Source of the DNA: Candidatus Woesearchaeota archaeon
Lineage (GTDB): Archaea; Nanobdellota; Nanobdellia; Woesearchaeales; UBA11576
DNA length: 36,113 bases
Assembly: GCA_003695435.1 (NCBI GenBank)
Contig: RFJL01000037.1
Coordinates: 1 to 36,113 of the forward strand
Direction: 5' to 3'
Position 1 is the stretch's first letter. Every line of letters starts with the position of its first letter. A program made the position numbers and the translations under genes. The notes below the pieces were generated by a model, which was not told the DNA's origin, made no database searches, and was given only the letters and a program-made list of their open reading frames with translations. Shown one piece after another: positions 26,603-32,534 of this stretch.

Positions 26603-27040
26603 ATGAAAACACTATCGAAAAAAGACATCAAACAACTTAATGAGCGCATAGGAAGAGAGGTCTTTTCTAAAAAAGACTTGCTACAAGAAGAGTGCGGAAG
26701 GTATTATAGAAATAAAGAACTGGTTTTTTTCACCTTGCCACAAGGAAGACTTGCTCCCTCATTGAAATTCTTGCTCAAAGATCTGTACTTGCCCAAGGTT
26801 ACTGTTGATATGGGTGCTGTGAAATTCGTAGTGGGGGGTGCTGATATCATGCGACCAGGGGTTACTGCGTGTGATGAAGGGGTGATGCAAGGCGATCTTG
26901 TGGTTGTGGTTGATGAGACTCACGGCAAGCCACTTGCGGTGGGGGAGGCTCTTATGGGTTCTGAAGAGTTGCTTGCAGCTACGAGTGGCAAGGTCGTTAA
27001 GAATCTGCATTATGTGGGCGATGATCTTTGGAATGCGTAG
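26603..27040 (+). CDS. PUA-domain RNA-binding protein (MCT-1/Tma20-like, DUF1947 type)
   Basis: The 145-residue protein has an N-terminal alpha/beta pre-PUA part (about 1-65, KKDLLQEECGRYYRNKELVFF) and a C-terminal PUA domain (PKVTVDMGAVKFVVGGADIMRPGVTACDEGVMQGDLVVVVDETHGKPLAVGEALM). This is the arrangement of archaeal relatives of MCT-1/Tma20, which bind tRNA or rRNA during translation initiation or recycling. It ends the cluster, and a run of eight T about 20 bases after the stop codon may terminate transcription. Confidence 0.85.
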   Translation: MKTLSKKDIKQLNERIGREVFSKKDLLQEECGRYYRNKELVFFTLPQGRLAPSLKFLLKDLYLPKVTVDMGAVKFVVGGADIMRPGVTACDEGVMQGDLVVVVDETHGKPLAVGEALMGSEELLAATSGKVVKNLHYVGDDLWNA

Positions 27041-27142: not shown

Positions 27143-27151
27143 GTTTATAAA
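27143..27151 (+). promoter_or_regulatory. TATA box for the RelA/SpoT-like operon
   Basis: The element tttataaat is about 26 nt before the ATG at 27173, indicating leaderless transcription of the first gene of the pair. Confidence 0.65.
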
Positions 27152-27172: not shown

Positions 27173-28279
27173 ATGTCGCAAGATCCACTCGAAAAAATAC
27201 TTGCACAATTCCAGCACGATCCCAGAGTCCAAGCTTTCTTTAAAAGCCTGCGTCAGACAGTGGTTAAAAACCCTCATGACGCACAAAAAATACTTGATCA
27301 TATCTCGGAAACTGATAGAAGAGTTATTGAAGAACTTCAACAGGCAGTAAAAGATGTGTCTCTTACATCAGACACGTACCTCTCTAAAATAACAGAATCT
27401 CTTTTCAGGGGGATCAACAAAGGAGCGAGTAGAAGAAACTACATTGTACAATACTGCACCACCCATGATATCACAGAAGATCAAAGACTCTTTGAACAAG
27501 TTATTCCTACAGATGAATATATCCTTGAACACGAATTCATAGAAGGTGATGCACTTGCAGAAGAAGTTGCATCATTTGAACATACTCTGAGACGCACATA
27601 CCCTTTCTCATTTTTGTACAGCTCAGCAAATGAAATCAGATCTCTTGACAAAGGTCATTTCTTGCACGGCGTGCGATCACGCGTGAAGAGCAGACATAGA
27701 AGAACAACCAAACTCACAGAAGTGGTCTGTCAAGGAGTAGTTCAAGAGAGCAAACCAAGAAATATCAGCGATAGTTATGCACTTGCGATAATCCTTAACG
27801 ATTGGGACGATCTTTCAAGAGAAATGAAGCAAGAAGCAAAAAAATTCGTAAAAGAATACTTTGATCAGAGCACACTTGAGTATTTTGGTTTTTCACCCAA
27901 ACCAGCAGGAGAACGAGAGTGGGAAGATGCACTGCACTATGCAGTTTTTTGTTTTATTAATTCAAAAACGACCGACATTGACAGAACTACTGTTGATGAC
28001 TGCATAGCTAAACCAATGAGAAAAGGAAATCAGCGGGAGATTGACACGTGGAAGGGTTTGCGTGCAAGTGTGAAAATAGGAACAATTCCCCTTGAAGTAC
28101 AAGTAAAAACAAAAAGGATGCTTGAGCGAGAATATGACTCAGACTCTGCATTGTTCCATCCCCGCTACGCACTCGGAAAACAAAGAGAACTACAAGAGTC
28201 CCAATGCTGGACACCAGTACATGACGCAATATATGACATACTCGACTCAGTATTGCATGGAGGAAAAGATCATGCCTAA
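27173..28279 (+). CDS. divergent RelA/SpoT-domain (p)ppGpp synthetase-like protein
   Basis: The C-terminal half has the marks of the RelA/SpoT nucleotidyltransferase: RSRVKSRHRR with Arg170-x-Lys172 (pyrophosphate-donor ATP site), ISDSYALAIIL with the metal Asp200 (family D-L-x-A-x-R-I-I), DDCIAKP (family D-Y-I-x-x-P), WKGLRASVKI (family GYxSLHTTV, with Trp293 in place of the guanine-stacking Tyr), and PLEVQVKTKRM with Glu308 (family EVQIRT). Trp293 to Glu308 is 15 residues, as in the family. Residues 1-155 are helical and unrecognised; no HD hydrolase, TGS or ACT domain is present. It is leaderless and its stop overlaps the start of the next gene. I infer alarmone synthesis or a related pyrophosphate transfer; substrate and activity are untested. 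Confidence 0.7.
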   Translation: MSQDPLEKILAQFQHDPRVQAFFKSLRQTVVKNPHDAQKILDHISETDRRVIEELQQAVKDVSLTSDTYLSKITESLFRGINKGASRRNYIVQYCTTHDITEDQRLFEQVIPTDEYILEHEFIEGDALAEEVASFEHTLRRTYPFSFLYSSANEIRSLDKGHFLHGVRSRVKSRHRRTTKLTEVVCQGVVQESKPRNISDSYALAIILNDWDDLSREMKQEAKKFVKEYFDQSTLEYFGFSPKPAGEREWEDALHYAVFCFINSKTTDIDRTTVDDCIAKPMRKGNQREIDTWKGLRASVKIGTIPLEVQVKTKRMLEREYDSDSALFHPRYALGKQRELQESQCWTPVHDAIYDILDSVLHGGKDHA

Positions 28280-28841: not shown

Positions 28842-29297
28842 TTAAACATCTGAAATACGTCTTGTTTTCGGAACAAAATTAAGAATTCTTCCATCGCGCA
28901 GTTTACCACAGCCAAGCCAATACTCTTTGTGCTTTATTATGACAAGAGCGTTTTCCTCATCACCCGAATATGCAAGATCTTTTCCACGCATCCACTCAAG
29001 CATATCATCATAACTAATTTCAATAACATTTCTTGAAGCAAGAGGCCCAATAATTTCAGATCCTTCAATAGAGAGGCGAAAACCATCTGCTTGCAAACCA
29101 CCCAAATAGAGTCCAATCTTATCAACACGAAGATTTTCAAAATCAATTTCAGAGATGTCTTCGTTAACTACGTAGAGTTTGTCCTTATTCGTTTTCAGAA
29201 GAACATCTTCTGCTTTGAATTCTGCTCCAAATTGTTCTTTGAGAACTCTCGCAATTTCTTTTCTTTCCTTTGCATTAAGGAATTTTCCATTAAACAT
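28842..29297 (-). CDS. Nip7-like PUA-domain protein (COG3270-type)
   Basis: The 151-residue protein has a pre-PUA part (FLNAKERKEIARVLKEQFGAEF, KDKLYVVNEDI) and a PUA domain with GLYLGGLQADGFRLSIEGSEIIG, NVIEISYDDMLEWMRGKDL and the C-terminal GKLRDGRILNFVPKTRRI. This is the pattern of Nip7 and its archaeal relatives, which bind rRNA in ribosome assembly. It is the last gene of the aIF5B-lipoprotein-lipoprotein operon and overlaps the preceding lipoprotein gene by 8 nt. Confidence 0.8.
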   Translation of the reverse strand: MFNGKFLNAKERKEIARVLKEQFGAEFKAEDVLLKTNKDKLYVVNEDISEIDFENLRVDKIGLYLGGLQADGFRLSIEGSEIIGPLASRNVIEISYDDMLEWMRGKDLAYSGDEENALVIIKHKEYWLGCGKLRDGRILNFVPKTRRISDV

Positions 29298-30723: not shown

Positions 30724-32481
30724 TTATATGCCCCACACGGGGTTGTTTTTTCGCTTAAGCTCTGCCAACTCGCGCATAACTTCAAGCTCTGAGTCTTTAA
30801 GAAAGCGCTTCAACTCTTTAAGCTTTTTGAAATCTTCTTCAGGAATATCTGCAAAAAGGATATCTCCTTCCTCAACCTGTCTTCCCACTGTGACATTTGG
30901 AAATGACATTGCAACCTGGTTTCCTGCTTCAATAACAGACTTGCTCTCCTTTTCTTTTTGAATGGACTTGATACTTGTAAGGTGAGTTCCATCCTTGGTA
31001 ACATTTGTTCCTACTTTGATTTTTCCGACCAGGACATCAACACCAACAACAGCAGGATTGCTTTGGCGAAATACGAAATTCTCCATAATCTTCATCTTAC
31101 AGGGTCTGACAAGAGAATCCAACACTTGTGTTTCCTTTTCTTTTTCCTTTTGAGCAAGCCACTCCTGATGACGTTCAAGAAGGTGGTAAATAATATCTGA
31201 TTTGTCAACTCGCACTTCTGGGGGCACAACTATATCTTCAGGAACGTTAGTGTTAAAACATAATATCACTGCGGTAAGCGGATCTCGTTCCGCATTTGCT
31301 TGAGCATCAATAATATCCTTTTTAGTTACGTCCCCAAGACTTGCTCGGCGAATTTTAATACCTGCTTCTCTGAAGAGGTTTACCATAGCTTCTAAGCTTC
31401 CAATAGTATCTGCCTTAATGATAATTCCCTCGCCATCGGTTTCAACAACGACGTTTTGAATCTCCTTTTGCAACTCCTTTGCCACTTCTTCAACATTGCC
31501 ATCAGGTACAGAACGAATAGGCATGCCTGCAATGACTCCTTCCATATCAGGACAAGAAATTTTCACACCGGTTGCTGAAACTACCTCCTTTCGCGTCTCA
31601 AACTTCGCTTTCTTGTCTCGCATTTCCTTAAGGGAAGCAGGCTCAAAAAGTGCACGAACTTTAGTAATAATAGGACCATTCATAGAACCAATAACGAGAA
31701 CATCCCCAACACGAAGTGTACCATCATAAAGAATAACGTCCATCGTTTTTCCCAGGCCCCGCTCTTCTTTCACCTCAAGAATTGTTCCCTTAGCAGGGCC
31801 CTGCGTGCTCATCTCAAGGCGTTTTTCAAGAAATTTTTGCGCAAGACCCGAAAGAACCATTAGGAGCTCCGCAAGGCCTTCTTTTGTTTTTGCAGAGATG
31901 GGAACAATACCTATCTGCGTAGTAAAATCCTCCACACGATCAAAACGCTCAGAATTAAATCCTCTCTCACTAAGATTTCCTACTAATTCATACATTTTAG
32001 TTTCAAAGTCTCTTACAACATTGGGGTCTTGCGAATTAATACTCGCAAGAACAGATCCGGGTTTTGATCGCCAACCGGGAAGAAGATCTATCTTGTTAGC
32101 TGCAACGATGAAAGGGGTTTTGTAAAATTTGAGAATTTCTAGTGCCTCAATTGTTTGCGGTTTAAACCCTTCTCGTATGTCAACTACAAGCACAGCAATA
32201 TCTGCAAGATTGCCACCTCTCTTTCTTAGCGAAGTGAATGCGGCGTGTCCAGGGGTATCAATGAAAAGAAGCCCTGGAATGGTAAAATTTGCTTTTCCCC
32301 CCATGAGAGGAGCGCACACTTTGTTAATAACATCAATGGGAACTATTGAAGCACCAATTGCTTGAGTAATCGCACCTGCCTCAGTTGCAAGAATATTCGA
32401 TCCTCTAATTGCATCAAGAATACTGGATTTACCGTGATCGACATGACCTAAAACAGTGCAAATAGGTGATCTTTGAGACAT
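30724..32481 (-). CDS. infB: translation initiation factor aIF5B
   Basis: aIF5B is the GTPase that joins ribosomal subunits after initiation. The 585-residue product has the G domain with GHVDHGKSS (G1), the switch region ATEAGAITQAIGAS, FIDTPGHAAF (G3) and AANKIDLLPG (G4). Domains 2-4 follow, with VKEERGLGKTMDVILYDGTL and the C-terminal QVAMSFPNVTVGRQVEEGDILFADIPE. The ATG at 32481 is used because a TATA box lies about 27 nt upstream and MSQRSPICTVLGHVDHGKS fits the family start. It leads the operon with two lipoproteins and a Nip7-like protein. Confidence 0.97.
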   Translation of the reverse strand: MSQRSPICTVLGHVDHGKSSILDAIRGSNILATEAGAITQAIGASIVPIDVINKVCAPLMGGKANFTIPGLLFIDTPGHAAFTSLRKRGGNLADIAVLVVDIREGFKPQTIEALEILKFYKTPFIVAANKIDLLPGWRSKPGSVLASINSQDPNVVRDFETKMYELVGNLSERGFNSERFDRVEDFTTQIGIVPISAKTKEGLAELLMVLSGLAQKFLEKRLEMSTQGPAKGTILEVKEERGLGKTMDVILYDGTLRVGDVLVIGSMNGPIITKVRALFEPASLKEMRDKKAKFETRKEVVSATGVKISCPDMEGVIAGMPIRSVPDGNVEEVAKELQKEIQNVVVETDGEGIIIKADTIGSLEAMVNLFREAGIKIRRASLGDVTKKDIIDAQANAERDPLTAVILCFNTNVPEDIVVPPEVRVDKSDIIYHLLERHQEWLAQKEKEKETQVLDSLVRPCKMKIMENFVFRQSNPAVVGVDVLVGKIKVGTNVTKDGTHLTSIKSIQKEKESKSVIEAGNQVAMSFPNVTVGRQVEEGDILFADIPEEDFKKLKELKRFLKDSELEVMRELAELKRKNNPVWGI

Positions 32482-32503
32482 ATTCTTTTTTAAAATCGGT
32501 CCC

Positions 32504-32511
32504 TTTATATT
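32504..32511. promoter_or_regulatory. shared symmetric TATA box for aIF5B and trm1
   Basis: The element tttatatt (aatataaa on the other strand) is centred about 26.5 nt from the aIF5B ATG and 27.5 nt from the trm1 ATG in a 53-nt divergent gap. It can serve both leaderless genes. The minus-strand side has a purine-rich gagaaaaac upstream that could be a BRE; the plus side does not. Confidence 0.6.
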
Positions 32512-32534
32512 GTTTTTCTCTTCTTTTAGCAAGC

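Follow-up and report, generated by a model that had tools for sequence, protein, structure and literature searches.

Bacteria use the RelA/SpoT synthetase domain to make stress-signal nucleotides. Among the toxSAS proteins, FaRel2 is linked to tRNA and FaRel and Tas1 to (pp)pApp, and CapRel belongs to the same group. Archaeal RelA/SpoT proteins (RSHs) were long held to be sporadic (PMC3153485), and RelA/SpoT has since been reported in 41.7% of Woesearchaeota (PMC8407392). The protein considered here, P0001, is encoded in the window, i.e. the whole 36,113-nt stretch of DNA analysed (contig RFJL01000037.1 of a Candidatus Woesearchaeota archaeon); its ORF starts with ATG, is free of internal stops and specifies 368 aa.

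With the long RSHs (PF04607), that of its own genome included, P0001 has in common the SYNTH domain, the R-x-K motif, the Lys at +10, the Asp, the E-x-Q motif and the distance of 15 from Tyr or Trp to Glu, but it lacks the HD, TGS and ACT domains as well as a Pfam match, the Arg at D+5, the N-G and the His of SLH, and an N-terminal module stands in place of HD/TGS/ACT. RelQ and RelP resemble it in being stand-alone synthetase domains, and they are its top-ranked yet insignificant Foldseek matches; P0001 differs from them in an extra N-terminal region of ~160 aa and an altered acceptor loop, and a direct sequence match to them is undetectable. Equivalents of the FaRel2 donor residues and a two-gene coupling are shared with the toxSAS, and the adjacency of synthetase and HD gene in some relatives recalls the aTfaRel-faRel pair. 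The conserved chromosomal slot, the archaeal host and the absence of an identifiable antitoxin domain set P0001 apart from these systems, as does the zinc-ribbon-like region which precedes the SYNTH domain in its slot relatives. Synthetase domains in archaea are common to divRel and other archaeal RSHs (PMC3153485), the DPANN RelA/SpoT proteins (PMC8407392) and the family described here, but the former are sporadic or canonical RSHs, unlike the slot family. No description of this family was found in the literature searched, in which coverage of subscription journals was mostly lacking.

We propose, with a joint probability of roughly 0.7, that P0001 is a diverged RelA/SpoT-superfamily enzyme of a slot-bound family, which would act as an ATP-dependent 3'-pyrophosphokinase in growth or translation control and would be regulated by its N-terminal module and the adjoining ORF2. 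The features of the locus are compiled in the table.

Table. Features of the P0001 locus (window positions; residue numbers refer to P0001)
Feature	Position	Strand	Basis
PUA-domain gene, upstream slot border	26603..27040	+	PF01472, 75.7 bits; synteny
Archaeal TATA-like box, TTTATAAA, ~25 bp before P0001 ATG	27144..27151	+	Sequence
P0001, divergent RelA/SpoT-type synthetase-like protein	27173..28279	+	Profile searches, hhalign, conservation
N-terminal helical region with decayed zinc-ribbon-like segment (only C95-x-x-H98 left)	27173..27652	+	Orthologues have two Cys pairs
SYNTH-like domain, residues ~165-345	27665..28207	+	Profile alignments A4, A8, A9; hhalign to canonical RSH
R170-x-K172, putative donor (ATP phosphate) motif, FaRel2 R64/K66	27680..27688	+	>=90% conserved in 22 slot proteins
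K180, FaRel2 K74 (R+10)	27710..27712	+	>=90% conserved
D200, FaRel2 D90, Mg2+ aspartate equivalent	27770..27772	+	Invariant in 22
W293, acceptor-base stacking position (Tyr in RSH)	28049..28051	+	Y/Y/F in orthologues
E308-V-Q310, FaRel2 E145/Q147	28094..28102	+	E >=90%, Q invariant
ORF2 (176 aa), 8-nt overlap with the end of the P0001 gene	28272..28802	+	GGAGGA 7 nt before ATG
RsmF-type PUA gene, convergent, downstream slot border	28842..29297	-	PF13636, 40.1 bits
IF2/eIF5B-type translation factor gene, syntenic landmark	30724..32532	-	Same gene beside slot in relatives

Relationship of P0001 to RelA/SpoT synthetases

Searches with P0001 alone yielded no RelA_SpoT match in Pfam (PF04607 included) or NCBIfam and no match in a sequence search of the PDB; weak Pfam matches (XPC-binding, SRI, DUF445) stayed below the cut-off and were taken as chance. 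The score against a canonical RSH-domain HMM was 6.5 bits only, and a single-sequence scan of the genome contigs was empty; querying with the alignment retrieved the three orthologues already known. All residues named in the original prediction (R170, K172, D200, CIAKP, WKGL, and EVQVKT with E308) are present in the translation, as R170-V-K172-S173, D200, K280-P281 within CIAKP, W293-K-G-L296 and E308-V-Q310-V-K312-T313, and the W293-E308 spacing of 15 indeed equals the Tyr-to-Glu distance in the canonical RSH of the same genome (GYRSIH...LEVQIRT). The bare pattern R-x-K-x7-[KR]...D...E-x-Q is present in 4.3% of P0001 shuffles, and was discarded as evidence of homology by itself. Since the motif list is too weak to carry the claim, homology has to be argued from the relatives.

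Close orthologues are three only, at 24-25% identity to P0001. Two same-family genomes gave the only direct matches (~25% identity) among 242 genomes of the order, and the third orthologue (genome G003, locus L084) was located by its position. When a profile of the four sequences, P0001 included (A4), was run against 281 genomes of the class, it matched besides itself only canonical long RSHs (best 1.1e-8), among them that of the window genome (4e-6); these matches fall in the synthetase region, at coordinates coinciding with those of the PF04607 matches. In hhalign, A4 aligned to the canonical synthetase domain with a probability of 95.6% and a score of 58, compared with maxima of 0.7% and 17 among 30 column shuffles. 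An iterative HMM seeded by canonical RSH domains and run over the ORFs of 68 loci, which had been picked around the RsmF-type PUA landmark gene, converged on 24 genes, all near that landmark, and recruited the window protein from canonical RSH at 2.7e-5. P0001 and the proteins of L002 and L003 score below the PF04607 cut-off, which is a detection threshold and not a biological definition, and other slot members score above it.

AlphaFold models built from the four-sequence alignment were poor, with mean pLDDT values of 56 for the full length and 55 for the C-terminal domain. Foldseek searches of the PDB with these models ranked RelP and RelQ at the top (E ~0.1, low TM-scores, insignificant); because of the model quality, these ranks are not taken as proof, and the structural check lends weak, consistent support only. 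The divergent synthetase domain that had been postulated from the letters of the gene is thus backed by the A4 profile, by hhalign and by iterative recruitment, and P0001 is very likely a homologue of the RelA/SpoT synthetases. Its description as a stand-alone protein agrees with the absence of HD, TGS and ACT matches in Pfam.

The first ~155 residues had been regarded as a new module without known counterpart. This view had to be given up, because the relatives carry two Cys pairs in a zinc-ribbon-like region, which together with a helical region makes up their N-terminal part. Two Cys (or Cys/His) pairs precede R-x-K in the proteins of L002, L003 and L084, and in about 10 of the 24 slot proteins overall. 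As P0001 retains just C95-x-x-H98 of this region, its N-terminal module is best read as a decayed form of a family feature.

The premise that alarmone synthetases are rare in archaea fails for this order, in which 110 of 242 genomes, the window genome among them, have PF04607 matches (see also PMC8407392). A canonical RSH was found in ~35% of the sampled genomes of the order, and the long bifunctional RSH of the window genome (L039:1899-3920) has intact HD and synthetase motifs. Several other RelA-like proteins were encountered. A 364-aa protein (L042:735-1829; G155:C94) combines a RelA_SpoT synthetase domain with an N-terminal third that looks Nudix-like on visual inspection. A second RelA-like family of ~300 aa occurs in the window's family (L035:2211-3107, L036:2345-3241, L037:2107-3051, L052:1940-2839), where it adjoins two HIT-type genes, to which L035, L036 and L052 add an HD-like gene of dGTPase-like appearance; the PF04607 search revealed no member in the window genome. 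A third RelA-like family of ~340-440 aa, with a long conserved C-terminal extension, is found at other positions in the order's genomes (L040, L041, L043-L049).

The genomic slot and its partner genes

In the window, the gene order is PUA gene, P0001, ORF2 and the convergent RsmF-PUA gene. The RsmF-type PUA profile matches 224 of the 242 genomes of the order, and the IF2 gene adjoins the slot also in L034, L038, L050, L051 and L053. RelA-like genes were found at the RsmF-PUA landmark in at least 12 woesearchaeal families (f1, f2, f7, f10, f38, f41, f42, f49, f55, f60, f70, f73). In one genome of the window's family (G008), the place of P0001 between the PUA and RsmF genes is taken by a clear PF04607 protein (58.9 bits); in another (G004; L085, C121, just past position 1972) the slot is empty, the PUA and RsmF-PUA genes lying tail-to-tail ~50 bp apart. 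An artefact of searching at the landmark only is unlikely, because members in G152, G078, G010 and G164, which were absent from the set used to build the A9 profile, were found with it genome-wide and fall in the slot. The slot family is fast-evolving, positionally conserved and largely missed by standard annotation. Base composition gives no support for P0001 as recently inserted foreign DNA (GC 0.407, equal to that of the window).

The slot appears to take in varied genes. Other neighbours of the RsmF-PUA gene code for a Fic protein (L104:1848-2675), an HATPase_c_2 protein (L099:1958-2551) and a member of the URO-D family (L117:1950-2975). RelA-like proteins of 893 and 946 aa are encoded beside the same RsmF-PUA gene in L038:1864-4545 and L086:2325-5165, respectively; R-x-K and the Asp are apparently missing from them, and KDYxxHPKKNxYKGRHA and ExQYRT remain. 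Between its RsmF-PUA and IF2 genes, a contig that appears to be archaeal has a gene for a protein resembling bacterial sigma-70-type factors (L053:3087-3881; G057:C98), possibly as a result of gene transfer or of a binning or assembly fault.

From the TATA-like box ahead of the P0001 start codon, the P0001-ORF2 pair probably has its own promoter and a leaderless transcript. Translation of ORF2 is likely coupled to that of P0001, given the overlap of the two genes and the Shine-Dalgarno sequence before the ORF2 start. ORF2 is conserved in four same-family loci, one orthologue showing a weak, sub-cut-off match to PF14736 (NTAN1-like); its profile found no relatives outside these loci in the slots searched, and comparison with known antitoxin domains (Pfam, PADLOC) gave no match. 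ORF2 as a general component of the slot was ruled out, and a role as general regulator is unsupported, because it was not found in slots outside the window's family.

An HD-domain gene occurs in the slot region of ~20 of the 68 sampled loci. As a group, these genes align with the RSH hydrolase domain (hhalign 98.7%; shuffles <=0.2%), and on visual inspection of the alignment the His, His-Asp and later Asp/Asn motifs were retained in those of L105, L110, L096 and L136. Their recruitment took eight rounds (threshold 1e-3), and since members were still being added at the stop, the weaker ones are less certain. Six of the 20 loci have a recognisable RelA-like gene in addition to the HD gene, and in L105, L096 and L126 synthetase and HD gene are 1-2 nt apart or overlap. 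The other 14 lack a RelA-like gene above threshold; neighbours of the HD genes in L136, L116 and L092 show R-x-K and E-x-Q. There is no HD gene near P0001 itself. The idea that HD slots replace the long RSH was dropped in view of a small difference (long RSH with 5 of 20 HD slots versus 20 of 48 others; hand tabulation).

The variable content of the slot, its emptiness in G004, the fast divergence of its proteins and their architectures of 201 to 946 aa would suit a toxSAS- or CapRel-like toxin or anti-virus effector, which stops translation by pyrophosphorylation of tRNA 3' ends or by (p)ppApp and is neutralised by ORF2 (in the window) or HD hydrolases (in other loci). A donor site that is kept beside an acceptor site that varies (see below) would fit as well, as would the coupled two-gene arrangement. 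In Cellulomonas, the faRel gene has as its neighbour an antitoxin gene for a small alarmone hydrolase (PMC11782079), a pairing similar to that in the six loci, and a weak PADLOC match (27 bits) links the slot relative P0002 to PDC-S33, a candidate defence family. However, a mobile toxin-antitoxin pair would seldom keep its position through at least 12 families, ORF2 does not correspond to any known antitoxin, and PADLOC gave nothing meaningful for P0001, so that we consider such a toxin rather unlikely.

Donor and acceptor sites

The proposed pyrophosphokinase activity draws on the comparison with FaRel2, in which ATP is bound by R64, K66, K74, E145 and Q147, and Mg2+ is held by D90 (PMC11782079). 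The residues R170, K172, K180, E308, Q310 and D200 of P0001 match these in turn. Across a set of 22 slot proteins with a mean column identity of ~18%, neither D200 nor Q310 varies, and R170, K172, K180 and E308 are each conserved to at least 90%. The original prediction had been made to hinge on conservation of R170, K172, D200 and E308 in homologues, and thus withstood this comparison. Retention of the six residues at such low identity is hard to account for other than by catalysis, and P0001 is likely to be an active pyrophosphokinase.

The acceptor loop (NGY-x-SLH in RSHs) is variable. Its aromatic residue, W293 in P0001, is Tyr in two orthologues and Phe in the third; the His of SLH is absent in all four proteins, and the N-G is lost in three of the four, being kept in L084 only. 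Of the G-loop motif NGY-x-SLH, which serves the guanine nucleotide acceptor, P0001 has the aromatic W293 only. The adenine-contacting R95 of FaRel2 (D+5) corresponds to A205 in P0001, and to Ala, Thr or Gln in the orthologues. The altered acceptor site suggested originally is borne out in part, by the changing aromatic (W/Y/Y/F) and the missing N-G and His, which point to no particular acceptor. Because the His and the D+5 Arg are lost in all four proteins whose donor residues are kept, a changed acceptor is suspected, and preserved donor chemistry combined with a changed acceptor would be the simplest reading; the odds that the acceptor is other than GDP or GTP are about even. By the same losses, together with that of the N-G in most of the four, activity could be reduced or absent.

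P0001 might also be an ordinary (p)ppGpp-producing small alarmone synthetase, stand-alone and simply drifted in sequence, for which the genome's own bifunctional RSH would serve as hydrolase. That RSH, its motifs being intact, could degrade the product; moreover, an aromatic is retained at the stacking position, and the Trp-to-Glu spacing is canonical. The loss of the NGYxSLH His and of the D+5 Arg in all four orthologues, alongside kept donor residues, speaks against a synthetase of this kind, as does the failure to detect (p)ppGpp in either of two archaea examined (PMC8646023); we regard it as clearly unlikely. Without the Arg that contacts adenine and with acceptor-loop residues missing, P0001 could also be a catalytically dead pseudo-synthetase that persists next to translation genes in a binding or scaffolding role, the more so as the two same-family relatives of 893 and 946 aa apparently lack R-x-K and the Asp; the retention of R170, K172, K180, D200, E308 and Q310 at ~18% identity makes such a scaffold improbable. 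That the motifs coincide by chance in an unrelated fold, for which the empty single-sequence searches and the frequency of the bare pattern in shuffles might be quoted, can be dismissed as highly improbable, since the profile search, the shuffle-controlled profile-profile comparison, recruitment by the iterative HMM and the clear RelA_SpoT protein at the syntenic position agree.

Proposed mode of action and significance

In the pyrophosphokinase reading that we prefer, P0001 would retain the pyrophosphate-donor half of the active site, for ATP and Mg2+, in combination with a remodelled acceptor half. The protein would most likely transfer pyrophosphate from ATP to the 3' position of a nucleotide or to an RNA 3' end and, once switched on, would slow growth or translation; both the N-terminal module and ORF2, whose translation is likely coupled to that of P0001, may regulate this activity. 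The family to which it belongs occupies a variable slot extending from the PUA gene to the RsmF-PUA and IF2 genes; in other lineages, SpoT-like HD genes frequently occur close by as separate genes. On a more tentative note, the woesearchaeal zinc-ribbon-linked RelA-like pyrophosphokinases beside translation-initiation genes, often accompanied by an HD hydrolase and using a non-guanine acceptor such as another nucleotide or tRNA 3' ends, might possibly constitute a split alarmone or translation-shutdown system.

For the question of alarmone-type signalling in archaea, the slot family supplies specific candidate proteins. These would tell whether archaea that are mostly host-dependent make alarmones, modify tRNA, or fight viruses or rivals in this way.
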